From Pedobacter chinensis (GTDB lineage Bacteria; Bacteroidota; Bacteroidia; Sphingobacteriales; Sphingobacteriaceae): 64,000 nucleotides of DNA. How positions within the stretch are numbered: position 1 is the stretch's first letter; each line of letters starts with the position of its first letter. The position numbers and the translations under genes are program-made. A model generated the notes under the pieces. The model was not told where the DNA came from. It saw only the letters and a program-made list of their open reading frames with translations, and searched no databases. The stretch spans positions 496,001 to 560,000 of the forward strand of contig NZ_QPKV01000002.1 of assembly GCF_003339865.1 (NCBI RefSeq), written 5' to 3'. Shown in pieces: positions 47,874-63,278 of the stretch.

Positions 47874-48047
47874 CTTTTTTACTAAAAAAGATCAATAAAG
47901 CCAAAAGTGGCTCATAAAGAGTAGTTTACAAGAGTCGGAAATGTTATCGGTAACGATTTAGTAATGGTGCTAGATGCATTCATTTTCACTAAAAATCCTT
48001 GTAATTCAATCGCTAATTTACGAAAATATTAGTGCATTATGTATGGT

Positions 48048-48884
48048 TCACTGTTTTTCTTCTTGTTCATCCATTTTCTTGATTAAGGACTCCCTTAACG
48101 TATCTAAGAATTTGGTTCGGCTCATTTTTCGATTTCGTAATTCTAGATAGGTATGATAAAAATCGCCTAATTCAATATTAAAAACGCTTTCAAAATATTT
48201 TGCAATTAGTTTAACATCCGCATTACCATTATCAAAAACTCCTTGATAGTGTAGTGCATATATCAATTCTATCAATGATGTCTTACTTGCTGTCCAGTTT
48301 AAACTTGTTTGAATAGTTGAAGGTTTATTAATTTTATGCAAGCACGCCAGTTGATCTTCAATATACACTTGTATTAAATCATTGGCTAATATTTTTGCTA
48401 CTTTATAATCATGAGAAGTTGAAAAACTATGGTCGGATTCAAAATAGTACGTGTCAAGGCTTAATTTTATATCGTGCTTTCCTCTTAGAAAGTACTTGTT
48501 ATCTAAATAACTGCTGTCCGTTCTAAAATATTTATAGAACTCCAGATTGTTATCGAAGAACTTCCTTAATCTTATCTGCTCATTGGTAAGATACTTTTTG
48601 ATGGATTTGAAACCGCCATATGGCTTTTTTGTTTCAATCTTAAAGACGGCATTATAGTATATCAATTTTGAAAGTATGCTTGGCTTTAGTTTTTTAAAGA
48701 AGTGTATTTCATCTTTCTCTTCAATAAAACCTTTTTCCAGAACATAAAGCTTGATGTCCTTAAGATAACTAAGTATGAGGTTAACAGCCATTTCTGATAG
48801 CTGAATAGGCTCATCAAATTCGATCTTAAGTTCTTCTAGTCTACTATCAAGTTCTCGAAGTTTATCTTTGTAAAATTTATGCAT
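48048..48884 (-). CDS. RteC family regulator
   Basis: A 278-residue protein recognised as RteC-type. The pattern YYNAVFKIETKKP, HDIKLSLDTYYFESDHSFSTSHDYKVAKILANDLIQVYIEDQLACL and LIELIYALHYQGVFDNGNADVKLIAKYFESVFNIELGDFYHTYLELRNRK is characteristic. In the Bacteroides conjugative transposon CTnDOT, RteC activates excision genes in response to tetracycline. RteC homologues mark conjugative and integrative elements of Bacteroidota. RteA/RteB partners are not present in this window. It points to an island or ICE remnant and may not be functional for excision here. Confidence 0.88.
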   Translation of the reverse strand: MHKFYKDKLRELDSRLEELKIEFDEPIQLSEMAVNLILSYLKDIKLYVLEKGFIEEKDEIHFFKKLKPSILSKLIYYNAVFKIETKKPYGGFKSIKKYLTNEQIRLRKFFDNNLEFYKYFRTDSSYLDNKYFLRGKHDIKLSLDTYYFESDHSFSTSHDYKVAKILANDLIQVYIEDQLACLHKINKPSTIQTSLNWTASKTSLIELIYALHYQGVFDNGNADVKLIAKYFESVFNIELGDFYHTYLELRNRKMSRTKFLDTLRESLIKKMDEQEEKQ

Positions 48885-48948
48885 TAGAAAAATATGTGGA
48901 AGTTTCCACGACGAGCTTCAGATCATGTCAGCTCAGAGACGTTGAAAA

Positions 48949-50685
48949 TTACTGATTAATATTAAATATATTGAGTGTAAAATAGAAAGTACTTCCTGCA
49001 CCGTACTCACTCTCGACCCATATTTTACCTCCCTGAGCCTCAATAAACTCTTTGCTTATACTCAGTCCTAAGCCGGTTCCTTCTTTTTTAGTGCCGGGAA
49101 TACGGAAGTATCGTTCAAAAATCTTACTGAGGAACTGGGGCTGTATACCTTGCCCCGTGTCTGTTACAGAAAATTGAATTACATTTTCTACCTTTTCTGT
49201 TATTACATGAATCGTCGAATTTTCGTAGGAATATCTAACTGCATTAGAGATTAAGTTAGTCAGCACCCATGCCGTTTTTTCGCTATCCGCTGCAACAAGA
49301 TCATCGTCCTCTAAACTGATTTCAATGTTTATGTTTTTATGTTCAGCAGCTGATTTATTTGCATTTACAGCATAATCAACCATAGGTCTTATTTCAGAAG
49401 CAATAAGATTTATCTGAATAGCCCCACTTTCTACCTGTGTGATGTTTAACAATTCTCCGGTAATTCGTAAAAGTCTCTCAGCATCATCTTTAATCCCTTT
49501 TATCAATGTTATCTGCTCTTCATTTAAGCTCCCTACCTGATTGTTTTCTAGCAGTTGAATACCCATTTGGATAGATGAAATGGGTGTTTTAAATTCATGG
49601 GAAACCGTTCCCATAAAATTGGTTTTTGCTAAATCCAGCTCTTTAAATGGTGTAATATTTCTCAATAGAATAACCTGACCGATAAATTCACTATCTGCTT
49701 CTCCGGTAGGAACGATGTTGATGTCCACAACCTCTTTTTCAAAGTAGCTTTCCTTTCTGTCTGCGTAAATTTTTAATTGTTCGGATTTTACATTTTCAGG
49801 TTTCGGAATAAAAATATCCTTGATAATATTTCTAATTAAATCATTGGTAACGGCTATATCCTGTATTTGTTTACCAATAAATTCGTCTTTTCTTAAACCG
49901 CAAATATTCAATGCTTCTTCATTAGCAAAAAGAACTTTTTTATTTTCATCGATACCAATAACCGGATCATGCAGGTTATCAATCAGAGTTTCAATGCGTT
50001 TTTTACCTTTTAGGATTTTATCCAATTTACTCTCGGAATATTCTTCCAGTTTCTCAGCCATTGTGTTGAATGATTTTGCCAAGTCACCAAATTCATTATG
50101 TCCTTCAAAATGTACCCTCTTTCTATAGTTCTGTCCTGCTATTTCTTTTATACTATCGGTTAACTCCTTAATAGGATTGGCTATACTAGAAGGTAAATTG
50201 ACCAGTAAAATAAATGCAATCATGAAACATAGTGAGCCTGTAACTGAAATAATGACAATTGCGTTTTGAGCCGTATCATCGGCAATGTCACTTTTCCGGT
50301 TAATAGCTTCCATATTCAAGCGCATTAGTTCCGTAATATCTTTCCGAATGTTGGATATCAAAGAGGAATCCTCGGGCTGTATCTTTAGCTGCTTAAAATG
50401 TTTAATGATTAGGTTGGTGGCCTCTACTTCTCCTATCTCGGTTACATTCTTCTGTTGCAGATCCAGATTCTTTTGAAAGGTGTCCAAAGCAGATTTGTCT
50501 ATTGCTAAATCTTCCAAAGACAATAGCATATTTCTGGAATATTGCAAGGTATTGTAATTGGCAACAAGGATATTATTCGTATCTTTTTTGAGTTGGTTTA
50601 CATACCAGCCACTAACAACAGCTAATGCCAATATGAGTAAGAACAGAGCACCAACTCCAACCGTTAATTTTGCTTTTATTTTCAT
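48949..50685 (-). CDS. Sensor histidine kinase of the kdp locus
   Basis: A 578-residue, complete membrane kinase. Membrane segments are near 7-29 and 143-165, with a periplasmic loop between. A HAMP domain follows (about 166-218), then PAS (about 230-340). The HisKA box has H363 in GTVSHEFKTPISS. The ATPase domain contains the N-box WVLTNLISNAVRYS, DTGQGIQP and GTGLGLSISKEF. Its start is one base after the KdpD-N stop. In Bacteroidota the KdpD sensor module and the kinase are separate genes, so this is the probable kinase half. No response regulator gene lies beside it. Confidence 0.9.
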   Translation of the reverse strand: MKIKAKLTVGVGALFLLILALAVVSGWYVNQLKKDTNNILVANYNTLQYSRNMLLSLEDLAIDKSALDTFQKNLDLQQKNVTEIGEVEATNLIIKHFKQLKIQPEDSSLISNIRKDITELMRLNMEAINRKSDIADDTAQNAIVIISVTGSLCFMIAFILLVNLPSSIANPIKELTDSIKEIAGQNYRKRVHFEGHNEFGDLAKSFNTMAEKLEEYSESKLDKILKGKKRIETLIDNLHDPVIGIDENKKVLFANEEALNICGLRKDEFIGKQIQDIAVTNDLIRNIIKDIFIPKPENVKSEQLKIYADRKESYFEKEVVDINIVPTGEADSEFIGQVILLRNITPFKELDLAKTNFMGTVSHEFKTPISSIQMGIQLLENNQVGSLNEEQITLIKGIKDDAERLLRITGELLNITQVESGAIQINLIASEIRPMVDYAVNANKSAAEHKNINIEISLEDDDLVAADSEKTAWVLTNLISNAVRYSYENSTIHVITEKVENVIQFSVTDTGQGIQPQFLSKIFERYFRIPGTKKEGTGLGLSISKEFIEAQGGKIWVESEYGAGSTFYFTLNIFNINQ

Positions 50686-50686
50686 C

Positions 50687-51808
50687 TTACGATAGTATTA
50701 CGAGATCTATATTTTCATGTGACAACTTGTTCAGCAAAGCATTAAAAGTATCAGTCGCTAAAATGATTTTTGCCAATGTGATATGTGGTTTGCCAATGCA
50801 TACCGTCGTTATCTTACGGTCTTCACATTCTTTAATAATCGCTTTCGTTGTATTCTTTGATTTAACCTTTATAATTTCAGCCCCCAGCTCAGTCGCCAAT
50901 TTGAAATTATTAATCAAGTGTCTTTGTTTATCCAATGCGATTTTATCGGCACTTTCTCTAGGGGTCTGTACATACATCACATACCATTTGCTGTTATAAT
51001 AATTTGCTAAACGTGCGGTCTTTCGTATAACGTTTTTCGCTGTTTTTTCATTAGAGCTGATACAGGCTAAAAAGCGTTCTTTCTTAATATTTCTTGTCAG
51101 TACGACTTCTGTCTCTACTTTTCGCTGAACTTGTGAAGCCACTTCTTTTAAAGCTAGTTCTCGAAGCTGTAGGATGTGCTCACTCTTAAAAAAATTACCC
51201 AGAGCCGCTGCTATTTTAGAACTTTCATAAATTTTACCTTCCTTCAGACGATCGATCAGATCCTCTGCCGTGAGGTCAATATTGACTACCTCATCCGCTT
51301 GGGCTACAACACTGTCCGGCACACGTTCCTGAACATCTATCCCTGTAATATCCCGTACTTCTTCATTCAGGCTTTCAATATGCTGGATATTGACGGCACT
51401 GATCACATTGATACCTGCGTCTAAAATATCCAGGACATCCTGCCAACGTTTTTCATTGTTGCTTCCTTCTATGTTGGTATGAGCGAGTTCATCTACAATG
51501 ACCACTTCCGGTCGCAGATTGATAATGGCCTGCAAGTCCATTTCTTCTAATTCTTTACCCTTATAAAAAAGCTTACGTCTTGGTATTAATGGAAGCCCAT
51601 CCAGCAGAGCATGTGTTTCAGGTCTTTTGTGTGTTTCAACATAACCGATTTTTACATCAATGCCATTGCGCAAGAGTGTATGAGCCTCTTGCAGCATACG
51701 GTACGTTTTACCTACACCGGCACTCATCCCGATGTAGAGCTTAAATTTTCCTCTTCGCGATTTTTGGATCAGATCCAAAAAATGTTCGGCATTTTTTCTT
51801 TCGTCCAT
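50687..51808 (-). CDS. KdpD sensor half (KdpD N-domain plus universal-stress domain)
   Basis: A 373-residue protein matching only the N-terminal part of classical KdpD. The KdpD domain (about 20-230) has the Walker-A-like GMSAGVGKTYRMLQEA and VIVDELAHTNIEGSNNEKRWQDVLDILDAGINV. The universal stress protein domain follows (about 245-373, ISSNEKTAKNVIRKTARL). The transmembrane and kinase parts of enteric KdpD are missing and are supplied by the next gene. It senses K+ or turgor and modulates the kinase. A glycosyltransferase gene ends 2 bases upstream. Confidence 0.92.
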   Translation of the reverse strand: MDERKNAEHFLDLIQKSRRGKFKLYIGMSAGVGKTYRMLQEAHTLLRNGIDVKIGYVETHKRPETHALLDGLPLIPRRKLFYKGKELEEMDLQAIINLRPEVVIVDELAHTNIEGSNNEKRWQDVLDILDAGINVISAVNIQHIESLNEEVRDITGIDVQERVPDSVVAQADEVVNIDLTAEDLIDRLKEGKIYESSKIAAALGNFFKSEHILQLRELALKEVASQVQRKVETEVVLTRNIKKERFLACISSNEKTAKNVIRKTARLANYYNSKWYVMYVQTPRESADKIALDKQRHLINNFKLATELGAEIIKVKSKNTTKAIIKECEDRKITTVCIGKPHITLAKIILATDTFNALLNKLSHENIDLVILS

Positions 51809-51810
51809 AA

Positions 51811-53064
51811 TTATTGTTTATTAGCCCGACCGATAGCTTTACCTTCGATTATATCTATCGCATTGTTTATTCCATTTTCCATGGATAGGTGTTTCGCAAA
51901 TAATTCAGCATTCACATACAGGTCGTTATTATTAAACAATCCACGGACACTTTTAAGAAAATTATCAGGTGTAATTTTTTTTAAAGGTAGTGGATATTGA
52001 GCTACACCCTTATCATACGCAATTTTACCCCAAAAAAACTGGTCGCCTAAAGGATGTAATACCGGGCAGGTTAAAAAGGGTTTGCCCGCTTTAAGGCAAG
52101 CAGCAATTGTTCCGATACCACCATGATGTATAACAGCTCTAACGAGCGGAAACAATTTATCATAAGGAGCGGAATCTATTACTTTTATTCCCCTGTTGAA
52201 ATTAGATATTTCCGCATCTGAAATTCCCCAACCCTTCACGACGATTATTCTGGTGTCTAAGTCTTCACTTATCATATTGACAAGGTTAGGAATATTGATT
52301 TTTTTGCTAAAGGGCATACTTCCGAATGTTATCAGCAAGGGTGGATTACCATTGGCAAGGAATTCGGTTAAGTCCTGACCTAGTTCAGAAGAAGAATCAG
52401 TCGACCAAAAGCCTGTAAAAAAGCTATTCCTTGGGAAATCATCCGGCTTTCTTAAAACTAGCTCGCTTATACCATATATTGACATCAGGTCCGGCTTCCT
52501 GAACTTATTGGGAAGTCCAACGGTTTGCCGAAACTCCTGAATAGGCTTTTTCCACATCCTTAGCCCTAATTCTGTCAGTTTAAATGTTAGTTTGTTTAAG
52601 AAGGAAGGCAGCGATAATGCACTGAAAACGGGATTGGGAAATGCCGAAGTTGGCTGACTGGCAGGAACCACATTGGCGATGATCATTTTCTCAGGAAATT
52701 GATCTGCAAAGCTGTCTGCCAGTGTCTTGATGTGAAACAAAACCTTGTCACTGTTTTTGGACAAATCGAAAAAAGTTCTCAGCGCATCTTGTACCAGTGG
52801 AGCCATCATCTTTTTAAGGTTATTCGCTGAACGAATCGCATTTAAAGGGTTTTTCATCAAATCGCCTGCTTCTTTTGAATTAACTAATTCTTGGAAGTCC
52901 AAATCAACTGGAACAAAATCGAGTTCATACGATTCCACAAGGTTCTGAAAGTTTTTCGCTGTGGATAATACGACGTCATGCCCCTTGTCTTTAAGCGCTT
53001 TTCCTAATACAGCGTAAGGCTGCACATCTCCTCTTGTTCCTAATGTCAATATGGCTATCCTCAT
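51811..53064 (-). CDS. GT1 family glycosyltransferase inside the kdp operon
   Basis: A 417-residue GT-B glycosyltransferase of the UGT/MGT type. The N-terminal acceptor domain opens with ILTLGTRGDVQPYAVLGKALKDKGHDVV. The C-terminal nucleotide-sugar domain has VIHHGGIGTIAACLKAGKPFLTCPVLHPLGDQFFW, the family donor-binding signature. Such enzymes glycosylate small molecules or sterol-like lipids. Its position between the porin and the KdpD sensor half, with 2 bases to the latter, implies cotranscription with the potassium operon. Its acceptor is unknown. This pairing is unusual. Confidence 0.9.
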   Translation of the reverse strand: MRIAILTLGTRGDVQPYAVLGKALKDKGHDVVLSTAKNFQNLVESYELDFVPVDLDFQELVNSKEAGDLMKNPLNAIRSANNLKKMMAPLVQDALRTFFDLSKNSDKVLFHIKTLADSFADQFPEKMIIANVVPASQPTSAFPNPVFSALSLPSFLNKLTFKLTELGLRMWKKPIQEFRQTVGLPNKFRKPDLMSIYGISELVLRKPDDFPRNSFFTGFWSTDSSSELGQDLTEFLANGNPPLLITFGSMPFSKKINIPNLVNMISEDLDTRIIVVKGWGISDAEISNFNRGIKVIDSAPYDKLFPLVRAVIHHGGIGTIAACLKAGKPFLTCPVLHPLGDQFFWGKIAYDKGVAQYPLPLKKITPDNFLKSVRGLFNNNDLYVNAELFAKHLSMENGINNAIDIIEGKAIGRANKQ

Positions 53065-53100
53065 TGTTTGCTATTATTACGTAAAGATATTAATTATTGA

Positions 53101-53127
53101 AGGGTGGTATTGATTAAATACCACCCT
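53101..53127. other. Perfect 11-bp stem-loop between porin and glycosyltransferase
   Basis: AGGGTGGTATT, loop GATTA, AATACCACCCT. It lies just after the porin stop (leftward transcription). There is no strong T-run on the minus strand, so it may attenuate or stabilise the mRNA between the transport genes and the sensor genes. Confidence 0.75.
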
Positions 53128-53134
53128 TTTATCA

Positions 53135-54217
53135 CTAAAAACGTATCGCAAGCGATGTAACCGCCATCACATTATCTTTCTTCATTTGTTCATCTCTATT
53201 CAGGAATACAGCATCCTTACTGTTCAGGCTTTTCACTTCGGTACGCCAAACCAGATTAGGCAAGATTTGGTAATCTACATTGATCGAAGCTCCAAAAGTC
53301 TGAAATCCATTTTCTGTACCGGAACCGATGATAACTCCATTCTTATCTTGATAATATTCTCCTCTGGCAGCAATACTTACTTTTTCAGTAGGGCTGTATT
53401 TTGCAATCAGTACGGGTGTGTACCATGTATCATAGTCATCACTTGACTTTTCTTTCTGCTGTGCACCAATATCAAATCCGGCAATCAGGGCAAATTGATT
53501 GCTGATCTGAAACTGTCCGTACAGATTGTGGAAATAACGCATTCTACGTTCATCATCCGGAAAATCGTTGCCTATAAAGGAACTGCTGTTCAAGGTGATC
53601 CTGTCTGATGGTTTGAAAGTTAACTGATGTCCGAAGGCGGGCGTTGTATTGCCTTCTACACGTTGAATGCGTTGCCAGCTGTTTAATATCAGTACCGCCA
53701 TATTCCACTTGCCGTTGTCGGTTGCATAGGACAATTTGGCCCCTGTTTCGAAATAAGGTGAATTGTCGGCCATCATACTTCTCGTCAATGTAAAGCAATC
53801 TGCTCCGATAGCACTTTCAAAACCTATATGCGACGGTAGAATACCGGCATCTATCCAAAGATTTTTGGTTTTCGATACCTTTACACCCACGTTAGCTTCG
53901 TAGATGTTTTTAAGCACACCTTCTTCAGCGGCATAGTTGGCATTCATATAGGAACCCACTCCAAGAACCAGATTAGCCCGCATACGGTCTGTTTCATAAG
54001 CGGCTTTTATGAAACCTAAGTTTAAGCTCACTTCATTGTTACGGTTATGGCTGTACACAAATCCGGGTCTCGTGTTCGACTTTGGATTATTGAAATCCTG
54101 TTGGTAATAAACTTCTGCATATCCGCTGATGGTCAACGGTTTTTTTTCTGTTTCCTGAGCACATACACTTCCTGTTGCTCCCAGCAGGATCGCTGAGAAC
54201 ATAATTATTTTTTTCAT
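53135..54217 (-). CDS. Outer-membrane porin of the kdp operon
   Basis: A 360-residue beta-barrel protein. The signal peptide ends GSVCAQ. The barrel starts LTISGYAEVYYQQDFNNP and continues with alternating amphipathic strands to the C-terminal VTSLAIRF, whose final aromatic residue is typical for barrel insertion. It resembles porins found beside kdpC in Bacteroidota. It is likely to give the periplasmic Kdp pump access to external potassium or other ions across the outer membrane, but this role is inference. The gene lies about 107 bases downstream of kdpC. Confidence 0.88.
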   Translation of the reverse strand: MKKIIMFSAILLGATGSVCAQETEKKPLTISGYAEVYYQQDFNNPKSNTRPGFVYSHNRNNEVSLNLGFIKAAYETDRMRANLVLGVGSYMNANYAAEEGVLKNIYEANVGVKVSKTKNLWIDAGILPSHIGFESAIGADCFTLTRSMMADNSPYFETGAKLSYATDNGKWNMAVLILNSWQRIQRVEGNTTPAFGHQLTFKPSDRITLNSSSFIGNDFPDDERRMRYFHNLYGQFQISNQFALIAGFDIGAQQKEKSSDDYDTWYTPVLIAKYSPTEKVSIAARGEYYQDKNGVIIGSGTENGFQTFGASINVDYQILPNLVWRTEVKSLNSKDAVFLNRDEQMKKDNVMAVTSLAIRF

Positions 54218-54324
54218 TTTTGAATTATTAAAATTTAAACTGTTTTATTGAATTCCTCTCACGCCCTATATTTAAAATGGCTACACATACATTTGAATTA
54301 ACGGCTTGAAAAGACTGAGGTTGC

Positions 54325-54885
54325 TTATTTGAGTTCGTCCAATGCAATATTTAGTTTCAGTACATTGATCTTTTCTGGACCAAAAATGCCCCATAAAGGT
54401 TTTTCAGTCTGCTGATCAATTAATTGATTCAACTTGACTTCATCAACACCTCTTATTTTAGCTATCCGCTTTACCTGTACTTTGGCGGCTTGAACGGAAA
54501 AGTTCGGATCCAATCCGCTTCCGCTGGCTGTCAGCAGATCAACAGGTATTTCAGATTTATCAACCTCCGGGTTGTGTACTAAAAAAGTGTCAATTCGTGC
54601 CTGAACGTCTGCTAAATATTCCTCATTGGAAGGGCCTTTGTTACTACCTCCTGAGCCGGCAGCATTGTAATCCACAGCGGATGGTCTTGACCAGAAATAA
54701 TTGTCGTCTGTAAAAGACTGGCCAATATTCACATAATGCTTGTTTCCGTTGTGTTCAATAATTTCTCCTTTTCCAGCATTGGGAGCAAACTGTGCGATAC
54801 CCCAGACTGCAAGTGGGTAGATGACTGTAAAAAACAGAATCATAACAGCAGTCAATTTTATAGCGGGCAAAATATGTTTTTTCAT
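54325..54885 (-). CDS. kdpC: K+-transporting ATPase subunit C
   Basis: A 186-residue subunit with one N-terminal membrane segment (about 12-32). KdpC sequences follow: QSFTDDNYFWSRPSAVDYNAAGSGGSNKGPSN, and SASGLDPNFSVQAAKVQVKRIAK-like sequence. KdpC stabilises nucleotide binding by KdpB in the pump. It lies 22 bases after kdpB. Length and order match the classical kdpFABC operon. Confidence 0.96.
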   Translation of the reverse strand: MKKHILPAIKLTAVMILFFTVIYPLAVWGIAQFAPNAGKGEIIEHNGNKHYVNIGQSFTDDNYFWSRPSAVDYNAAGSGGSNKGPSNEEYLADVQARIDTFLVHNPEVDKSEIPVDLLTASGSGLDPNFSVQAAKVQVKRIAKIRGVDEVKLNQLIDQQTEKPLWGIFGPEKINVLKLNIALDELK

Positions 54886-54907
54886 TACTATTATTTTTTA
54901 TAATTGA

Positions 54908-56917
54908 TTAAAAGAAAACCGAGATAAGCATATCTATCAGCTTGATTCCAGCAAAAGGTATCAGTACGCCACCTAAACCATAAATGAACAGGTTTCTTCT
55001 AAGTAATGCACTTGCTCCAATAGGTTTGTAAGCTACACCTTTCAATGCCAATGGAATCAACATCGGAATGATGATTGCATTGAAAATTACAGCTGATAAT
55101 ATGGCACTCTCCGGACTGTGTAAATTCATAATATTAAGCCCTTGTAATGCAGGAATCGCTGTGATAAACAGGGCAGGAATGATGGCAAAATACTTAGCCA
55201 CATCATTGGCAATACTGAATGTAGTCAATGTACCACGGGTCATCAGCAATTGTTTTCCGATTTCCACCACTTCAATCAATTTGGTAGGATCGTTGTCCAG
55301 ATCCACCATATTACCCGCTTCCTTCGCTGCCTGTGTGCCAGAATTCATAGCAACGCCTACATCAGCCTGAGCCAGCGCCGGAGCATCGTTGGTTCCGTCC
55401 CCCATCATAGCTACCAATCGACCTTCTGATTGCTCTTTTTTGATGTAATTCATCTTGTCCTCGGGCTTTGCTTCAGCAATGAAGTCATCGACACCCGCTT
55501 TCTCTGCTATAAATTTTGCAGTTAAAGGATTGTCTCCGGTTACCATCACGGTTTTAATACCCATTTTACGCAGACGTTCAAAACGTTCCTGGATACCGGG
55601 TTTGATGATGTCCTGTAATTCGATCACTCCTAAAGCGACTTCGTTCTCTGATACGACCAGCGGTGTACCACCATTAGATGAGATAGCTTTAACTTTTTCC
55701 TCAACTTCTTTTGGAAACGTATTGCCTGCTCGTGTAACCATGCTTTTAATGGCATCCGTTGCACCTTTTCGGATACGTGTGCCTTCATAGTCTACACCTG
55801 AACTCCTTGTCTCCGCCGTAAACTTGATAAACTGAGGGTTTCTTGCTTCATAGCTTAATGGATTAACCCCGGCAAGCTCTATAATCGATTTTCCTTCCGG
55901 TGTTTCATCCGCCATGGAGCTCAATACCGCAGCTTTTATTAATCTTTTCTCATCAATACCATTGGCGGCATGAAAATGGGTTGCTTTACGGTTACCAATG
56001 GTAATAGTTCCTGTTTTATCCAATAGCAAAACATCAATGTCACCAGCGGTTTCAACCGCTTTGCCACTTTTGGTAATCACATTGGCTCTCAGGGCTCTAT
56101 CCATTCCGGCAATCCCAATGGCTGATAATAAGCCTCCAATGGTGGTGGGGATCAGACAGACAAACAGGGAAATAAACGATGCAATGGTAATTCCCACATT
56201 GGCGTAATCAGCAAATGGTTTGAGTGTCACACAGACGATGATAAATACCAATGTAAACCCTGCCAATAAAATCGTTAAAGCGATTTCATTGGGTGTTTTT
56301 TGTCGCGCAGCACCTTCTACCAACGCAATCATTTTGTCCAGGAAGCTTTCACCAGGCTGCGTTGTCACCTGCACCACGATTTTATCCGACAAAACTTTGG
56401 TACCACCCGTTACGGAGCTTTTATCACCACCCGCTTCACGGATTACAGGAGCAGACTCTCCGGTAATGGCACTTTCATCAATGGTAGCCAAACCTTCAAT
56501 AATTTCTCCATCGGTTGGGATTATGTCGCCTGCTTCACAGATGAAAATATCGCCTTTTTGCAATTGCGCAGACGAGATGGTTTTTCCGTTTTTCAATCTT
56601 GCAGGAGTTTCCTCTCTCGTCTTACGCAGACTATCAGCCTGTGCCTTACCTCTTGCTTCGGCAATAGCTTCCGCAAAGTTGGCAAACAATAATGTCAATA
56701 ACAGGATGATGAAAACCGTAAAATTATAGCCAAAACTTCCTTGTCCCTGAGCTCCTGCCAATGTCCAGAGGCTCACGGCTAACATGACCAAGGTACCGAT
56801 CCATACAGTAAACATGACCGGATTACGGAACATGGTTTTCGGATTGAGTTTCACAAAAGATTGCTTCAATGCTTCCTGAACCATATCTTTTTGAAACAAT
56901 GATGTATTGTTGTTCAT
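54908..56917 (-). CDS. kdpB: K+-transporting ATPase subunit B (P-type ATPase)
   Basis: A 669-residue P-type ATPase that drives high-affinity K+ uptake. The phosphorylation Asp300 is in [16 protein letters not shown] is at residues 152-155 in the actuator domain, PTTIGG in the membrane domain, and [19 protein letters not shown] in the hinge. All key residues are in place, so it is active by sequence. It is followed by kdpC and preceded by kdpA, 20 bases away. Confidence 0.97.
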
Positions 56918-56937
56918 TTCTAAATTCTTTAATCAGT

Positions 56938-58626
56938 TTAATAAAGTGAGAAGTATTCTGCAATTGGGCCTAATGCCAAAACCGGGAAGAATGCCAACGC
57001 AGCTACAATAGCGATTACGGCGAACACCATCAGTCCGAAAGTGGCTGTATCGGTCTTCAATGTTCCGTCACCTTCCGGTACAAATTTCTTTTGTGCCAAT
57101 AAGCCTGCAATTGCAACGGGACCTATGATCGGTAAGAATCTGGAAAGGATTAGTACAAATCCAGTACTGATATTCCACCAAGGTGTATTATCACCCAGCC
57201 CTTCAAACCCGCTACCGTTGTTGGCAGATGATGAGGTATATTCATAAAGCATTTCGCTAAGTCCATGAAATCCTGGATTATTGAGAGAGTCAGCCGTATA
57301 CTGTGGTAAAGCTGCTGCCAGTGCTGTTCCGACAAGTATCAGGAACGGATGTAACAGGGCGATAATCATGGCGATTTTCATTTCTCTCGCTTCTACTTTT
57401 TTACCCAGGAACTCGGGCGTTCTTCCCACCATCAATCCACTGATAAATACAGCCAGTATGATGAAAATAAAGAAGTTCAATAAACCAACGCCGACACCGC
57501 CGTAGAATGCATTGATCATCATGGCCAGTAATTCATTCATCCCGGATAACGCCATCGAACTATCATGCATGGAGTTCACTGAACCCGTAGAGATCACGGT
57601 GGTTACGATACTCCAAAATCCGGAAGCAGGTGCTCCTAATCGGATTTCTTTCCCTTCCATTGCTCCCAATGAATTATCGATACCCATAGCTGCTATAGCA
57701 GGGTTTCCGTTCATCTCCATATTGATATTTGGAATAGTCAGCATTAGAAAACCTACCGTCATTACGCCGAATATCATCCACGAGAGTTTTCTTCTTCTGA
57801 TAAAATAGCCGAAAGCAAAAATCATAGCCAAAGGCACGATCAGCTGGGCAACCATTTCTACCATATTGGATAAATAGGATGGGTTTTCAAAAGGGTGAGC
57901 AGAGTTTACACCAAAGAATCCACCACCGTTAGTTCCTACGTGTTTAATGGGTACAAAAGCAGCTGCTGGCCCTCTTGACACCTCTACAGAATCTCCCTGT
58001 AAAGTAGTGATGGTATCTTTTCCCTCAAAAGTCATCGGCGTGCCTTCAAACGCCAATATGATGGCTACTACAAATGATATGGGTAGTAAAATACGGGTAC
58101 ATGATTTTACAAAATTGCTGTAGAAGTTTCCCAAGGTATCGGCGGTTTTATCCCTGAATGCCCTGAATAATACTACTGCGGCTGCCATACCAGTTCCTGC
58201 ACTTACAAACTGTAAAAACATCAGCCAGTACTGTCCCAGATAGCTTAACCCAGACTCCCCCGAATAGTGCTGTAGATTACAGTTTACCACAAATGATATG
58301 ACAGTATTAAATGCAAGGTCTGCCGACATACTCGGGTTTTTATCCGGGTTCAAAGGAAGATTTCCCTGATTCATCAAAACAACCATTCCTAATAGGAACC
58401 AGACCATATTGATCGAGATCATCACGACCATCTGCTGTTTCCAGTTCATCTCTGTATGTGGATTGATACCACTGATTTTGTAAAAGATCCGTTCTATTGG
58501 ATTAAAAATCGGATCGAGCAGCGTTTTTTCGCCGCCATAGACTTTTGCGATGTATTTACCCAGCGGTATTGCCAGCAATATCGACAAGGTAAACATTACG
58601 ATTATTCCTAAAATTTCTGTGTTCAT
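56938..58626 (-). CDS. kdpA: K+-transporting ATPase subunit A
   Basis: This 562-residue channel-like subunit selects K+ in the Kdp complex. It has about ten membrane segments. Selectivity-filter loops are visible: SFVVNCNLQHYSGES near residue 110, VGTNGGGFFGVNSAHPFENP near 235, and further G-rich loops at GSVNSMHDSS and NNGSGFEG. The family length and order match. By eye the segment is richer in G+C than the left half of the window. Two tiny membrane-protein genes lie directly upstream. Confidence 0.97.
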   Translation of the reverse strand: MNTEILGIIVMFTLSILLAIPLGKYIAKVYGGEKTLLDPIFNPIERIFYKISGINPHTEMNWKQQMVVMISINMVWFLLGMVVLMNQGNLPLNPDKNPSMSADLAFNTVISFVVNCNLQHYSGESGLSYLGQYWLMFLQFVSAGTGMAAAVVLFRAFRDKTADTLGNFYSNFVKSCTRILLPISFVVAIILAFEGTPMTFEGKDTITTLQGDSVEVSRGPAAAFVPIKHVGTNGGGFFGVNSAHPFENPSYLSNMVEMVAQLIVPLAMIFAFGYFIRRRKLSWMIFGVMTVGFLMLTIPNINMEMNGNPAIAAMGIDNSLGAMEGKEIRLGAPASGFWSIVTTVISTGSVNSMHDSSMALSGMNELLAMMINAFYGGVGVGLLNFFIFIILAVFISGLMVGRTPEFLGKKVEAREMKIAMIIALLHPFLILVGTALAAALPQYTADSLNNPGFHGLSEMLYEYTSSSANNGSGFEGLGDNTPWWNISTGFVLILSRFLPIIGPVAIAGLLAQKKFVPEGDGTLKTDTATFGLMVFAVIAIVAALAFFPVLALGPIAEYFSLY

Positions 58627-58631
58627 TTTTA

Positions 58632-58745
58632 TTAATTAAATATGGTTTTAAACATCCACCCAAGCAGCTTGACGAATGCCAATACGATCAGGAATATCAA
58701 GGCAATTCGGGCTACATCTTTCATTTCATTGATTATCTTTTTCAT
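58632..58745 (-). CDS. Micro-membrane protein, 37 aa, directly before kdpA
   Basis: The frame MKKIINEMKDVARIALIFL, followed by VLAFVKLLGWMFKTIFN, gives one membrane segment (about residues 14-31) with a charged N-terminus. It begins with an ATG that overlaps the stop of the previous micro-gene (ATGA). A longer frame from 58823 exists but ignores this coupling. It ends 5 bases before kdpA. The role may be to stabilise or regulate the pump, as for KdpF, but this is inference. Confidence 0.7.
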   Translation of the reverse strand: MKKIINEMKDVARIALIFLIVLAFVKLLGWMFKTIFN

Positions 58746-58855
58746 AGCAATATTTGAATTTTTAGAAACGCCAAATAGATAATAGAAATAAAGAACAGCA
58801 CCCAGAATATAATGGATATCCATACCTTGATCTTCACCTTTGTATTTTTCTTCAT
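58742..58855 (-). CDS. Micro-membrane protein, 37 aa, coupled by ATGA
   Basis: The frame MKKNTKVKIKVWISIIFW, followed by VLFFISIIYLAFLKIQILL, gives a basic N-terminus and one long hydrophobic segment (about residues 10-32). Its stop overlaps the next ATG by ATGA. It begins 13 bases after kdpF ends. No relative is known to me, so the function is unknown. It is in frame with a plausible start and lies inside the operon. Confidence 0.65.
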   Translation of the reverse strand: MKKNTKVKIKVWISIIFWVLFFISIIYLAFLKIQILL

Positions 58856-58868
58856 CTACTGAAACGGT

Positions 58869-58946
58869 TTAAAATTTTTCCGGTTTAAGCAATACGTAGC
58901 AGATGTAAGCAAATACACCTATGGCTACTATAAATAATGCGGTCAT
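58869..58946 (-). CDS. kdpF: K+-transporting ATPase subunit F
   Basis: The 25-residue MTALFIVAIGVFAYICYVLL, ending KPEKF, is a single-segment membrane peptide of the Bacteroidota KdpF type, which stabilises the KdpABC complex. It is too short for ordinary gene finding. Its ATG overlaps the TGA of the upstream 127-aa gene. It is separated from kdpA by two more tiny membrane-protein genes, unlike the direct kdpFA junction of enteric bacteria. Confidence 0.88.
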   Translation of the reverse strand: MTALFIVAIGVFAYICYVLLKPEKF

Positions 58947-59326
58947 AGACTTGTTTTTTGTATTAAATAATTTGTATGCTGAAACTGATAAACATGTTTC
59001 AGGTTATTAGGGATAAGTTGATACACGTATATCCATTGTTCTGCTGTACAACGCCTTTTCATTCCTTCAAAAGAGCGGACAAAAAGATTCTCAATAATAT
59101 ACCTTACGTATTCATTTCCTCTTTTATGGAGCCAACCGATAAACTTAATTCTCACCCCAATTTTCTCTATCTGTCCCTTGGAGAGTAGAAGATTGATATG
59201 GTTAACGATTGCCTGAAATATGCCTGCAAAGTTTCTTTTCGAGGATAATTCGGTGATTTCTTCTTGAATTTCCCCATAATGCTGAGCCAGATAAACACTG
59301 GCTGCATTTTCGTTTATTTCATTCAT
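58943..59326 (-). CDS. Uncharacterised 127-aa protein in the kdp operon (DUF7674-like)
   Basis: A 127-residue soluble, probably helical protein. Its middle reads GNEYVRYIIENLFVRSFEGMKRRC. A similar pattern, GNQYTRNAIENEFLTALSF, is found in the 119-aa protein encoded 300 bases upstream, so the two appear to be divergent paralogues. I recall a Bacteroidota family of this kind (DUF7674). Its stop overlaps kdpF by ATGA, which couples their translation. A regulatory or assembly role for Kdp is possible but unproven. Confidence 0.75.
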   Translation of the reverse strand: MNEINENAASVYLAQHYGEIQEEITELSSKRNFAGIFQAIVNHINLLLSKGQIEKIGVRIKFIGWLHKRGNEYVRYIIENLFVRSFEGMKRRCTAEQWIYVYQLIPNNLKHVYQFQHTNYLIQKTSL

Positions 59327-59341
59327 TGTTCTGATTGTTTT

Positions 59342-59452
59342 TTATTTGCTGAAAAACATCCCATAGAAAATGCAGAAGACAATAAATGCTAAAAGTATTT
59401 TTGCCAATATATCTGTAACTATTTCTCTGTTTGATTTTCGTTCTTTTTTCAT
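59342..59452 (-). CDS. Micro-membrane protein, 36 aa
   Basis: The frame MKKERKSNREIVTDILAKIL, followed by LAFIVFCIFYGMFFSK, gives a basic N-terminus and one hydrophobic segment (about 15-33). Its ATG overlaps the TGA of the preceding 55-aa gene. It ends 15 bases before the 127-aa gene. No relative is known to me. Confidence 0.65.
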   Translation of the reverse strand: MKKERKSNREIVTDILAKILLAFIVFCIFYGMFFSK

Positions 59453-59616
59453 CTGCTGATTAATTGAAAGAATAAGAAGAAAAAGACAAAGCCAATTAAA
59501 AGACCTGCAAACCCACCAAGCTTTACAGAGGCTGCAAACAGGAGAAATAATAATATTGCTAATGCTGCCTTTTTTATTTTAGAAGACCACTGTTCTTTCT
59601 CTTTTGAAACTTTCAT
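59449..59616 (-). CDS. Small membrane protein, 55 aa
   Basis: The frame starts MKVSKEKEQWSSKIKKAALA and ends FFLFFQLISR. It has a basic, charged N-terminus and two hydrophobic segments (about 17-30 and 35-52) with a GG between, suggesting a helical hairpin. Its stop overlaps the next gene's start by ATGA. It begins 6 bases after the 119-aa gene. The function is unknown. Confidence 0.65.
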   Translation of the reverse strand: MKVSKEKEQWSSKIKKAALAILLFLLFAASVKLGGFAGLLIGFVFFFLFFQLISR

Positions 59617-59622
59617 GTTTAC

Positions 59623-59982
59623 TTAGTTTTCCAAAATGGTTTTGATATATCCTTTTCGCAATTCGATCGGAAATAAATCCAGGTGTTTTTTTAGACTACC
59701 TGGGCTCTCATCAAACGACAATGCTGTCAGGAACTCATTTTCAATAGCATTTCGTGTGTATTGATTTCCTCCCTGGTACAAAAGATTAATTACTTTCGCT
59801 ATCTCCTGAACCCGCTCTAATTCATCCTCCAATCCCGAACAAATTTTTTGGGAACAAACTTCTGCCAATTTGTGAAGCAATAGGTAGTCTGCAATAGCGT
59901 CATCCAGATTATCCAAATCGGGAATTAGTCTTGCAGCTTCAGGAGCCCATTGTTGTATCGTATTTATTATTTTTGTTTTCAT
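59623..59982 (-). CDS. Uncharacterised 119-aa protein, paralogue of the 127-aa kdp-operon protein
   Basis: A 119-residue soluble, acidic, helical protein. The shared pattern GNQYTRNAIENEF and the following LDLFPIELRKGYIKTILEN align by eye with the 127-aa protein (GNEYVRYIIENLF ... LIPNNLKHVYQ). It has no signal peptide or membrane segment. Duplicated copies in one operon may form a heteromer. I recall a DUF7674-type family but cannot confirm it. It lies just upstream of the 55-aa membrane gene. Confidence 0.75.
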   Translation of the reverse strand: MKTKIINTIQQWAPEAARLIPDLDNLDDAIADYLLLHKLAEVCSQKICSGLEDELERVQEIAKVINLLYQGGNQYTRNAIENEFLTALSFDESPGSLKKHLDLFPIELRKGYIKTILEN

Positions 59983-60046
59983 CTATTTATTTTCCTTAAA
60001 ATGGTCGATGAGAGCTCAATGTATTCACATCTTTTTTCATCTTATT

Positions 60047-60130
60047 TTAGATTTTCTCAAAGAAGTCGATTGACTTTATGAACAGGCCGAAGCAGGCTAA
60101 CCCTGCGAGTACTAAAACTGTTGTTATCAT
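60047..60130 (-). CDS. Micro-membrane protein, 27 aa
   Basis: The frame MITTVLVLAGLACFGLFIKS, ending IDFFEKI, gives one hydrophobic segment (about 3-18), in KdpF-like size. It begins 16 bases after the 47-aa gene ends. It is followed by a 64-base gap to the 119-aa gene. Other tiny membrane proteins of the operon have a similar layout. The function is unknown. Confidence 0.6.
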   Translation of the reverse strand: MITTVLVLAGLACFGLFIKSIDFFEKI

Positions 60131-60146
60131 GTTATAAATTTTAAGA

Positions 60147-60290
60147 TTATACCTCACTAATGTGCTTCATAATGGCTCCGAATATCAACATCACGATCAA
60201 TGCAAAAAGCAATAAATGATATGATTTGAGCCATTTTGGAAACGACGGCGGTTCTTTTTGCTGTTTCCATTTGACATTTCTTTTTCTCAT
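60147..60290 (-). CDS. Small membrane protein, 47 aa, first gene of the kdp operon
   Basis: The frame starts MRKRNVKWKQQKEPPSFPKW and ends AIMKHISEV. It has a basic, Pro-containing N-terminus and one hydrophobic segment (about 25-41). It is the first coding frame on the minus strand after the divergent promoter region with NhaA. No relative is known to me. Confidence 0.6.
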   Translation of the reverse strand: MRKRNVKWKQQKEPPSFPKWLKSYHLLLFALIVMLIFGAIMKHISEV

Positions 60291-60342
60291 TTTTAATTTC
60301 GTTTGTATACACTATGCCAATATTCATTCCAGTGAAAACAAA

Positions 60343-60442
60343 TACAGTATAAACAACTGTAAATAAGTTTGTTATTTAAATTCCTTTAATTCTTTCTTCC
60401 GAAAAACCTTCTCATAATGATAGGGTCATTCTCATAATGATA
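60343..60442. promoter_or_regulatory. Divergent control region with dyads and 20-bp-spaced palindromes
   Basis: TACAGT (60343-60348) and ACTGTA (60356-60361) form an inverted repeat with a 7-base spacer. Further right, TTCTCATAATGATA occurs twice, at 60409-60422 and 60429-60442. Each copy contains the palindrome TCATAATGA (60412-60420 and 60432-60440), exactly 20 bases apart, so both face the same side of the helix. These are candidate operators for a dimeric regulator controlling the kdp operon and/or nhaA. Confidence 0.6.
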
Positions 60443-60528
60443 CGACCATGTCAATTGATGATAAAAGGTATGCTGTCTTGGTGGAGCGATATTGCCTTGA
60501 TTAGTAAGGAGAATCGTTTTGAATTTTA

Positions 60529-60536
60529 TATTTTTG
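60529..60536 (+). promoter_or_regulatory. Putative nhaA -7 element
   Basis: TATTTTTG matches TAnnTTTG. It would give a leader of about 65 bases to the nhaA start. No correctly spaced TTTG is visible. Confidence 0.35.
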
Positions 60537-60608
60537 TACTTTATAAAATCGCAAATTGACTTTCTTCTAAGTCATTTTCAGCATAAACAAGAGGGATAAT
60601 TATAAAAG

Positions 60609-61940
60609 ATGAATAAAGTAAAAAGGACACCTATTGAAAAAATTGTATCACCTATACAGAGCTTCATTAAGAATGAAAAAGCAGGTGGAATCGTATTGGG
60701 TATTAGCGTAGTTATTGCTTTGATATTAGCAAACTCACCATTATCGGAAGAGTATCACCATATTCTAGAGCACAGGTTTGGTTTTCAATTAGACGGAAAT
60801 ACTTATTTTGAGTATAACCTGCATCACTGGATCAATGATGGTCTGATGGCTATATTTTTCTTTGTGGTCGGTTTGGAACTAAAAAGAGAGATTGTCGGAG
60901 GCGAGTTGTCCAACCCACGTAAAGCGCTATTACCCATTGCTGCGGCATTTGGTGGTATGGCTGTACCTGCCGCTATATATCTCTTCCTGAATCCAACAGG
61001 TGAAGTACACAGTGGTTGGGGAATACCCATGGCAACAGATATAGCATTCGCTCTAGGCGTACTTTATTTATTAGGAAACAAAATTCCGCTAACGCTCAAA
61101 GTATTTTTAACGGCTTTGGCTATTGTTGACGATTTGGGAGCCGTGCTGGTCATCGCTTTTTTCTATACATCGGACATATCCATGTTTCATTTGATCATCG
61201 GTGCTTTGGTACTGTTGACGATGTACATTGGTAATAAAATGGGCGTGCGAAGCATTTTGTTCTACGCGATTTTAGGGATAGGTGGTGTTTGGACTACATT
61301 TTTGTTGTCTGGCGTGCATGCGACAATTGCCGCAGTACTGGCTGCATTTACTATTCCGGCAGATGTGAAAATCAATGAAAAAATATTCAGCAATAATATT
61401 CAACGGTTGCTGGATAAGTTTAAAGGAATAGATCCGGACAACAGTAAACCTACGCTGACGAATGAACAGCTGCATATTCTCGAAGAAATTCAAAATAGTA
61501 CGGTTGCAGCGACTCCACCATTACAACGATTGGAACATGCGATGCACCCCATGGTAACGTTTATAATCATTCCGATATTTGCACTGGCAAATGCGGGCGT
61601 TTCATTGGCTATAGATATGGAACATTTGTTCAGTACGAATGTGGCATTGGGCGTCGCCTTAGGCTTGTTGGTCGGTAAAGTAGTAGGCGTTGTCGGATTT
61701 ACATGGCTTCTGGTTAAGCTTAAAGTTGCTCCTTTCCCGGAAGGGATGAATGTACGAAACCTATTTGGTGTAGGTTTGCTTGCTTCTATTGGATTTACGA
61801 TGTCATTGTTTGTGACTTCATTAGCTTTTTCGCATGAAGAATATATGACACAGGCTAAAATAGGAATTTTTGCAGCATCTATTATCGGCGGTGTGTTGGG
61901 GTATTATGTACTCAGCAAACAGGCGAGAAAGAAATCTTAA
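60609..61940 (+). CDS. nhaA: Na+/H+ antiporter NhaA
   Basis: A 443-residue integral membrane antiporter that extrudes Na+ (or Li+) in exchange for protons. The ion-binding Asp pair is at D174/D175 (ALAIVDDLGAVLVIA), and the preceding PMATDIAFALG holds a further conserved Asp (D144). About 12 membrane segments are present. An insert of about 40 residues in the middle (SNNIQRLLDKFKGIDPDNSKP) is cytoplasmic. It stands divergent from the kdp operon and is followed by a DUF389 gene 13 bases downstream. Confidence 0.95.
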   Translation: MNKVKRTPIEKIVSPIQSFIKNEKAGGIVLGISVVIALILANSPLSEEYHHILEHRFGFQLDGNTYFEYNLHHWINDGLMAIFFFVVGLELKREIVGGELSNPRKALLPIAAAFGGMAVPAAIYLFLNPTGEVHSGWGIPMATDIAFALGVLYLLGNKIPLTLKVFLTALAIVDDLGAVLVIAFFYTSDISMFHLIIGALVLLTMYIGNKMGVRSILFYAILGIGGVWTTFLLSGVHATIAAVLAAFTIPADVKINEKIFSNNIQRLLDKFKGIDPDNSKPTLTNEQLHILEEIQNSTVAATPPLQRLEHAMHPMVTFIIIPIFALANAGVSLAIDMEHLFSTNVALGVALGLLVGKVVGVVGFTWLLVKLKVAPFPEGMNVRNLFGVGLLASIGFTMSLFVTSLAFSHEEYMTQAKIGIFAASIIGGVLGYYVLSKQARKKS

Positions 61941-61953
61941 TATTCAATAGCAG

Positions 61954-63261
61954 ATGAGTAATAAAATATGGGATTTTATCAACCTGCACAATGGTGAAGA
62001 AGATAAACAAAAAGTTTTAGAAAACGTAACGGCTAACATTTCCTTTCGTGGATCCAACCTTTGGATATTGGCCTGTGCCATCATTATCGCTTCTGTTGGA
62101 TTGAATGTCAATTCCACAGCGGTGATTATCGGTGCGATGCTGATATCACCCTTGATGGGACCTATATTAGGGGCAGGATTTGCGTTAGGAACCTATAACT
62201 TCCTGCTGTTAAGGAAGTCAATCAAAAACCTGTTAATTGCCACAATTGTCAGCTTGCTGGTGTCGGCATTTTATTTTTATATCAGTCCGTTTAAAGACGT
62301 GCAATCTGAATTGTTGGCTCGTACTTCGCCCAACATATATGACGTGTTGATTGCTTTCTTTGGCGGTTTAGTAGGTGTTATTGCCATCACCCGGGTAGAG
62401 AAAGGAAATCCAATTCCGGGAGTTGCCATTGCAACAGCATTGATGCCGCCGTTGTGTACCGCAGGATATGGTTTGGCAACCTTTAATTTTAGTTATTTCT
62501 TTGGTGCCTTTTATCTGTACACGATCAACTGTTTCTTTATATGTATTGCCACTTTTTTGGTAATCAAGTATTTAAAATATCCTGCATCCGCAACGATCGA
62601 GCCTAAAAATGAAAAGCGTATCCGATATGGTATTACGACTTTAATGATGGTCATGATTATCCCTAGCTTTTATCTGGCTTATAATCTTTTTGAAGAGAAA
62701 AAATTCACAAAAACAGTAGAAGAGTTTATCAGTTCAGAATTTAGCAGCAGAGGTTATACCGTGATTTATAAAAAACTGAATTATAACTCCAAACCTAAAA
62801 AAGTGGATATTGCTTTCCTAGACAAAAAATTGAGCAAAGAAGAAATGGAGATGTATAACCGGCTATTGGATGAAAGAGGTATTCATAATACAACGTTGGG
62901 TTTTAGACAGGACGATGCAGATCTCAAATCTGAAATTCTCAGTGAATTGAATAAGCAGGATGCTTCTTTATCTGAAAAAGATGTTACCATCAATAATTTG
63001 AGGCAGGAATTGAATAGATATAAAGTAAGCGAACCTGGTTTAGTGAAAGAGATCAATGTCCTTTTTCCGGAACTTGAAGATGTGTCCCTCGGCAAAATAG
63101 AAAAATATACCGGGACCGACAGTGCAAGGATTGAATGGGTGGTTTTATACCATCTTGAAAAGGGAGCAAAAGAAACTGATAAAACCAAAATAAAGAAATG
63201 GCTAAATGAGCGACTTAAGGTCGATAACACACTGCTTTTGCAAGATACACAGTCAGAATAG
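61954..63261 (+). CDS. DUF389 membrane protein
   Basis: A 435-residue protein. The N-terminal part is a DUF389 membrane domain with about six segments (NISFRGSNLWILACAIIIASVGLNVNSTAVIIGAMLISPLMGPILGAGFALG and FGGLVGVIAITRVEKGNPIPGVAIATALMPPLCTAGYGLAT). From about residue 245 a hydrophilic, coiled-coil-like C-terminal region follows. Its function is unknown. It lies in one operon with nhaA and a K+ transporter gene, so a role in ion homeostasis is a reasonable guess. Confidence 0.9.
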   Translation: MSNKIWDFINLHNGEEDKQKVLENVTANISFRGSNLWILACAIIIASVGLNVNSTAVIIGAMLISPLMGPILGAGFALGTYNFLLLRKSIKNLLIATIVSLLVSAFYFYISPFKDVQSELLARTSPNIYDVLIAFFGGLVGVIAITRVEKGNPIPGVAIATALMPPLCTAGYGLATFNFSYFFGAFYLYTINCFFICIATFLVIKYLKYPASATIEPKNEKRIRYGITTLMMVMIIPSFYLAYNLFEEKKFTKTVEEFISSEFSSRGYTVIYKKLNYNSKPKKVDIAFLDKKLSKEEMEMYNRLLDERGIHNTTLGFRQDDADLKSEILSELNKQDASLSEKDVTINNLRQELNRYKVSEPGLVKEINVLFPELEDVSLGKIEKYTGTDSARIEWVVLYHLEKGAKETDKTKIKKWLNERLKVDNTLLLQDTQSE

Positions 63262-63278
63262 CCGCAGAGAAAAAAATA

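Follow-up and report, generated by a model that had tools for sequence, protein, structure and literature searches.

A GT-B glycosyltransferase gene in the porin–kdpD gap of Sphingobacteriaceae kdp operons: a candidate mobile accessory cassette

Conjugative transposons of the CTnDOT type are known for their drug-resistance cargo. Integrative conjugative elements (ICEs) with potassium transport genes are described in two papers, which place kdpFABC on Tn4371-like ICEs of Pseudomonas aeruginosa PA7 and Thioalkalivibrio (PMC2789088) and a kdp operon on an ICE of Acidithiobacillus caldus (PMC3826726). The locus described here resembles them in that a kdp operon is apparently carried by an integrative conjugative element; their hosts are Proteobacteria and Acidithiobacillia, whereas the present carrier is a putative CTnDOT-type element of Bacteroidota with a split KdpD, a porin and a glycosyltransferase (GT) cassette. 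With CTnDOT-type transposons it shares a tyrosine integrase, RteC, a TopB-like topoisomerase, a relaxase, a coupling protein, TraG, TraJ and TraM, but its cargo is cation transport and not drug resistance.

Among proteins of solved structure, the one most similar to the GT is the yeast protein UGT51 (PDB entries 5GL5 and 5XVM; family GT1), which, according to PMC9698648, is a sterol 3-beta-glucosyltransferase acting on sterols. UGT51 is both a near full-length sequence match and the top fold match of the GT; the two differ in sequence (about 25% identity), and a sterol-type acceptor is not indicated in the GT-bearing genomes searched. A coupling of kdp with a glycosyltransferase was not found in the open-licence PMC literature, among the matches listed, nor did the listed matches on sphingolipids offer anything of use.

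The stretch analysed, referred to as the window, comprises 64,000 nucleotides of the genome of Pedobacter chinensis. Beyond the preliminary description of this DNA, the analysis adds a putative conjugative carrier, a GT-free version of the same block in another genus, the apparent recurrent gain of the gene and a probable GT-kdpD-kinase unit.

The glycosyltransferase gene and its putative control region

Table 1. Features of the kdp locus in the window, with positions counted from its first nucleotide
Feature	Position	Strand	Remarks
GT-B (GT1-type, UGT51-like) glycosyltransferase gene	51811..53064	(-)	417 aa, intact, ATG start
KdpD N-terminal half, without kinase domain	50687..51808	(-)	PF02702 sensor domain, 309 bits; starts 2 bp after GT
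HAMP-PAS histidine kinase	48949..50685	(-)	starts 1 bp after KdpD half
RteC regulator, conjugative-transposon type	48048..48884	(-)	first gene within the putative left end of the element
BBP2 porin, upstream boundary of the slot	53135..54217	(-)	PF07642, 356 bits
kdpC, kdpB, kdpA	54325..58626	(-)	KdpA 100% identical to KdpA of G789 (other genus)
Hairpin with 12-bp stem between porin stop and GT start	53100..53128	(-)	terminator/attenuator-like, no long U tail
TATCTTTA	53082..53089	(-)	one mismatch from TAnnTTTG; 17 bp before GT start
GT with upstream spacer, no counterpart in the otherwise ~95–97% identical kdp block of G789	51810..53135	(-)	79-bp spacer there instead
Left part, within the window, of a putative CTnDOT-type conjugative element of ~75 kb	47875..64000	(.)	carries kdp, NhaA, DUF389, TrkH/TrkA

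The gene encodes a sugar transferase of the GT-B class. The N-terminal GT28/GT1 domain was found (Glyco_transf_28, PF03033; 45.6 bits against a Pfam cut-off of 26.2), while the C-terminal part matches EryCIII-like_C (PF06722) with 30.0 bits, slightly below the cut-off of 31.7. The match to the two UGT51 entries, the closest in the PDB, covers residues 3–407 with an E-value of 3e-30. The sugar-donor motifs HHGGIGT and GDQFFWG are invariant across a five-sequence alignment, and HHGG-GT, GDQFF and a GTRGDVQPY-like start are common to the GT and UGT51. A Foldseek search with the predicted structure returned UGT51 first, followed by transferases of the vancosaminyl and calicheamicin types; the model, made from five input sequences, is weak (mean pLDDT 61.9) and is taken as support only.

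Comparison of the GT with three relatives gave pN of 0.17–0.18 and pS of 0.65–0.75, the latter near saturation, with pN/pS of about 0.22–0.27. Since pN is far below pS, the gene is under purifying selection and is not a chance open reading frame. Its GC content (0.397) is no different from that of kdpD (0.395), so that composition gives no signal of transfer, and no match indicating a defence role was returned by PADLOC.

Two bases (51809–51810) lie between the GT stop and the start of the kdpD half, and 70 bp separate the GT start from the porin. The open reading frame coordinates, the Pfam domains and the UGT51 match thus bear out the preliminary description of a complete UGT-type gene two bases from the kdpD half in one orientation; its placement between porin and KdpD half is likewise correct, with PF07642 upstream and PF02702 downstream. 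At 353.8 bits, the KdpD half stays below the 550-bit cut-off of the NCBIfam model KdpD_non_kinase (NF038185), although the match spans positions 2–369 of 373 and hence almost the entire model. Two DUF7674 genes precede kdpA in the window (58943–59326 and 59623–59982), and at least one homologue was present before kdpA in all 19 loci of the GT-free survey drawn from the top of the KdpA list.

The hairpin between porin and GT lies in an 81-nt stretch around the gap with a folding energy of -18.7 kcal/mol (z -4.45); other gaps were folded without a shuffle control. The terminator scan of the window gave 6 terminators against 9.0 expected, and this hairpin was absent from the list. The element TATCTTTA departs by a single mismatch from TAnnTTTG, which we take to be the Bacteroidota -7 consensus. 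Perfect copies of TAnnTTTG are present in five of the six gaps that contain a GT, the window being the sixth, with about 0.44 expected from shuffles of those six gaps; among the 22 GT-free gaps scored, one perfect copy was found (G621), which makes 6 against 2.4 expected for all 28 gaps. Five GT-free gaps contain the one-mismatch form TAAATTTA 17–20 bp before kdpD, and in G599b the perfect copy stands 178 bp upstream of the GT and precedes an apparent hydrolase remnant. The input to this scoring included 15 of the 19 loci of the window's genus (g1); G646, which has no gap, dropped out, five gaps were skipped for length, and 28 were scored. The gaps of G789 and G689 entered both this scoring and the gap comparison in slightly shortened form (76 and 77 bases; the true G789 gap is 79).

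No sigma-54 promoter was found in the gap before the GT, and the window as a whole contains 33 matches with up to two mismatches against 33.7 expected; the sigma-70 scan of the window was likewise at chance level (34 found, 36 expected). The hairpin and the promoter-like element just upstream make it more likely that the GT is part of the regulator unit than of kdpABC; it would thus probably head a GT-kdpD-kinase unit.

The putative carrier element and its GT-free counterpart

Apart from the GT, the DNA between 47,875 and about 74.5 kb (in window-extended coordinates, counted on past the end of the window) is 95–97% identical to that of genome G789, which belongs to another genus (g25); a further piece at 77.5–83.4 kb (window-extended) matches G789 at 83%. 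The gene for GltB, 7 kb outside the block, is 82–86% identical to that of six g1 congeners against 68–70% for six g25 genomes. By this comparison the kdp block of the window has evidently moved recently.

Past the end of the window follow genes for TrkH/TrkA, a sigma-54 response regulator, a second RteC, a topoisomerase, a coupling protein, a relaxase, TraG and TraJ and, further on, TraM, DUF4138 and an integrase at 122.0–123.2 kb (window-extended). The CTnDOT-type gene set of integrase, RteC, relaxase, coupling protein and TraG/J/M is thus found in the host element, and since conjugation genes and an integrase surround the G789-like block, the latter has the appearance of cargo on a CTnDOT-type conjugative element roughly 75 kb long, whose transfer is putative and whose ends are inferred: the left one, near 47,875, from the onset of identity with G789, and the right one, at about 123.3 kb (window-extended), from the integrase. 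An 11-bp exact match within a longer imperfect repeat is present near both ends and is not claimed here as an att site. The element also carries genes of a DnaE-type polymerase and an ImuB/UmuC-type protein, a pair resembling those of SOS mutagenesis (108,770–112,863, window-extended; L222:5770–9863). In G789, a transposase-like open reading frame, so named by resemblance (38869–39945 of the joined stretch), splits a TrkH-like gene that is intact beside the window.

At the GT junction, the window and the GT-free block of G789 differ by one position per side in the first 90 bp, and in these 90 bp on either side no donor tracts were seen. Divergence from G789 is raised in short patches within the 3' portion of the kdpD half (about 50,730–51,000) and within the kinase gene (about 49,470–49,560), which suggests mosaic recombination.

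Distribution of the gene and polarity of its probable gain

The GT is rare. Within g1, 2 of 145 genomes match it at 1e-10, namely the window's own and G102, whose homologue is 28% identical and has no kdp genes around it in its 13-kb stretch. At 1e-20 it is matched by 19 of 395 genomes drawn from the phylum, the best besides the own genome at 52–53%, and at 1e-15 by 43 of 399 genomes sampled from the family. KdpA was found in 296 of the 399, while close copies of the GT (at least 63% identity) are present in five of them: the window's own genome (G000), G725, G723, G599 (two copies) and G604. The porin–kdpD position is without the GT in all 19 congeneric kdp loci read. It is also missing from 19 further loci taken from the top of the KdpA list, in four of which the porin and in two of which kdpD was not found; these were chosen after leaving out the known carriers G723, G725 and G604, so that 0 of 19 is not an unbiased frequency. 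The g25 loci L181, L182, L185 and L188 have no porin match between kdpC and kdpD, and the gap thus varies beyond the GT. Regular presence of the GT, as expected of a core component of the Sphingobacteriaceae kdp operon, was not found. The view of it as a fixed part of a potassium operon does not stand, as it is missing from the position in 19 of 19 congeneric loci and, among 145 genomes of the genus, the window's own alone has a close copy.

Elsewhere the slot is occupied. Four copies in the further contigs searched are 63–73% identical to the window GT, and those of Sphingobacterium olei, Sphingobacterium JB170 and Parapedobacter defluvii lie on the same strand in exactly the porin–kdpD position; G725, G723 and G604 seem to represent these three assemblies and were not counted a second time. 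Together with both kdp loci of G599, of which one is disrupted, five other kdp loci have the GT in this gap. Recurrence at the same position, which the preliminary description had wished to see surveyed, is therefore found, and absence from all relatives, which it had held to speak against its reading, is not. In S. olei a XRE-pentapeptide gene separates the GT from kdpD. In G599, locus L130 has a complete kdp operon with the GT in the slot, and in locus L129 the GT is preceded by an alpha/beta hydrolase gene and followed by a small gene. The kdpB gene of L129 (11762–13231) is seemingly interrupted by a transposase-like pair, and a single KdpA was found in that genome; at about 8340–8490 of L130, in the gap before the second G599 GT, a short frame resembles the L129 hydrolase and is probably its remnant. 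In P. defluvii (L032, 15424–19212), RteC and Tra-like genes, the latter named by resemblance only, lie a few kb past the kdp-GT operon and suggest the same kind of conjugative carrier.

The history of the operons was followed on an unrooted tree of 19 kdp operons, built on the KdpD half, KdpB, KdpA and KdpC. Left out were G599a, whose KdpA/B were not recovered, G747a and G616/L195, in which no KdpD half was found, the GT-free loci L182, L185 and L188, which gave no porin match, and all g1 congeners. The five GT-bearing operons need five changes on this tree and are not clustered (mean of 4.6 for shuffled states), no two of them grouping together. Four pair with a GT-free sister at 100/100 support: the window with G789, JB170 with G801, S. 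olei with G761 and P. defluvii with G621; G599b has a long branch and no close GT-free sister. The GT tree places the window copy with those of S. olei and a Chitinophagaceae MAG (99/98). In AU tests the GT data reject the pairing of window and JB170 (p 0.006), the Kdp data reject that of window and S. olei (p 0.033), and a single clade of slot copies without the MAG copy is also rejected (p 0.009); the tested pairings were picked after the first trees, which makes these p values somewhat optimistic. The GT and Kdp trees are in conflict.

The polarity of the change is indicated by the gaps themselves. Those of G789, G689, G693, G801 and G761 share one conserved empty-gap sequence (z 6.9–17.2; none of 300 shuffles as high), and this set takes in the GT-free sister operons of the window, of JB170 and of S. 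olei, so that an ancestral empty state is the simplest reading for these three; the conservation of the sequence across three sister pairs argues for gain rather than loss of the GT. The gaps of the GT-bearing members are unlike those of their sisters (window against G789, z 1.4, 28 of 300 shuffles as high; JB170 against G801, z -0.1; S. olei against G761, z 0.1). The GT leaders of JB170 and S. olei are related (z 6.9) although the two operons belong to different Kdp clades, so that the GT seems to travel with its own upstream region. The P. defluvii gap, by comparison, contains the hairpin and promoter-like element of its GT-free sister G621 (z 10.1), with the GT between these and kdpD. Set against the leader of JB170 and S. 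olei, this suggests that the gene was captured in at least two ways, with one and the same arrangement as the outcome. As part of the explanation favoured below, we consider it rather probable that the GT was gained separately several times in the porin–kdpD gap, the polarity of gain being shown in three cases.

Relatives of the GT outside kdp operons are also found at cation loci. The Chitinophagaceae MAG copy has histidine kinase and response regulator genes before it, ABC genes and Kup after it and genes for NhaA and an ion channel in the vicinity; the G570 copy (54%) lies near DUF389, about 78 kb from its own kdpA; and a 54% copy on a conjugative plasmid of Emticicia oligotrophica lies 1.2 kb from nhaD. 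The other 19 plasmid-borne relatives listed, of 54 records, are about 30–32% identical and lie on other plasmids. No cation genes were found near the G179 and G200 copies (52%) in the stretches read, and seven of the eight copies of 42–46% identity share one conserved non-cation neighbourhood, beside cytidylate-kinase-like and ribosomal-S1-like genes named by sequence resemblance. In G591 (L137, 6585–10500) a 44% relative lies 1.5 kb from a NhaA-like gene, whose product is 41% identical to the NhaA of the window, and stands apart from the neighbourhood common to its seven closest relatives. A connection with ion or osmotic stress, the latter suggested earlier for this gene, is thus plausible in so far as the gene recurs at one position and several non-kdp relatives adjoin cation transporters, although the GT is no fixed part of a potassium operon; a fixed cation role is made slightly less likely by the shared neighbourhood of seven of the eight copies and by the rejection of a slot clade.

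Possible function and competing explanations

Genes of terpenoid enzymes were searched for in 11 genomes, seven GT-bearing and four GT-free sisters. The hopanoid cyclase domain (SQHop_cyclase_C) is absent from 10 of the 11, the single fragmentary match (E 1e-5), in the window's own genome, passing the cut-off only together with its frame neighbours; a hopanoid is thereby ruled out as the general acceptor. Phytoene/squalene synthase is present in 8 of the 11 and missing from the GT-bearing G723, G604 and G570, which rules out a carotenoid as the general acceptor. With these gaps in GT-bearing genomes, the hint of a sterol-like acceptor that UGT51 gives does not extend to the GT. From distant homology (about 25% identity to UGT51), and with moderate confidence, the acceptor may be a lipid common to these bacteria, of the ceramide or diacylglycerol type.

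Taken together, the observations are best explained, in our view with somewhat better than even probability, by a mobile accessory GT cassette gained repeatedly in the porin–kdpD gap of kdp operons, placed at the head of the K+-sensor unit and possibly serving glycosylation of envelope lipids under K+/Na+ stress. The cassette, a control region with one GT-B gene, would have been captured separately several times in Sphingobacteriaceae, the kdp operon of the window itself apparently riding as cargo of the CTnDOT-type element. On insertion the GT would become the first gene of a GT-kdpD-kinase transcription unit, and from this place its expression would be expected to go along with that of the K+ sensor. 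Its product may then glycosylate a membrane or envelope lipid, of the ceramide or diacylglycerol and not of the hopanoid type, during K+/Na+ stress. We infer both the co-transcription with kdpD and the lipid glycosylation from the gene arrangement and protein resemblances.

The enzyme could instead be a passenger of the mobile element that glucosylates an antibiotic or another xenobiotic, the promoter position before kdpD being merely a landing place. The apparent conjugative element as carrier, the 54% relative on a conjugative plasmid and the more distant ones on other plasmids (19 listed of 54) are in keeping with this, as is the best NCBIfam match, to the rifamycin-inactivating glycosyltransferase Rgt (NF000354; residues 217–355, E 3e-14), with macrolide-family transferases next. 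The scores, however, are far below the curated cut-offs, 52.8 bits against 800 for Rgt, 41.7 against 260 for MGT (TIGR01426) and 20.9 against 700 for Mgt (NF033129), so that the GT is a member of none of these families; moreover, its clade recurs at cation loci and in one gap, a preference not required of a general resistance gene. We regard detoxification as unlikely.

It is improbable that the GT is an ancestral gene of the kdp operon deleted in most lineages. Its occurrence in the same slot in several genera would agree with such a history, and five changes on an unrooted tree cannot by themselves separate gain from loss; but the single empty-gap sequence over three sister pairs, barring its own spread by recombination, is older than the GT in the window, in JB170 and in S. 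olei, and the GT and Kdp trees disagree. A neutral hitchhiker in a gap prone to recombination, functionally unrelated to potassium, would account for the variability of the gap, as seen in the XRE-pentapeptide gene of S. olei, the alpha/beta hydrolase and small gene of G599 and the porin itself, for which 4 of 19 loci gave no match. That the GT is under purifying selection and that several of its relatives lie beside other cation transporters makes this quite unlikely.

If the repeatedly gained cassette is the correct reading, it is conceivable, though we hold this only tentatively, that the GT with its own control region is a recurrent, site-preferring add-on of mobile kdp operons, and that envelope glycolipid synthesis is a new output of the Kdp sensor, with K+ uptake and membrane remodelling travelling and switching together. 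The same kdp block, at about 95–97% DNA identity, with and without one gene in two genera is a clean natural experiment. Should the GT prove to glycosylate lipids in response to K+, control by Kdp would extend past ion transport to the composition of the envelope; even otherwise, the repeated gain of one gene in one promoter-proximal gap of mobile kdp operons would be a tractable case of the capture of accessory genes into regulated units.
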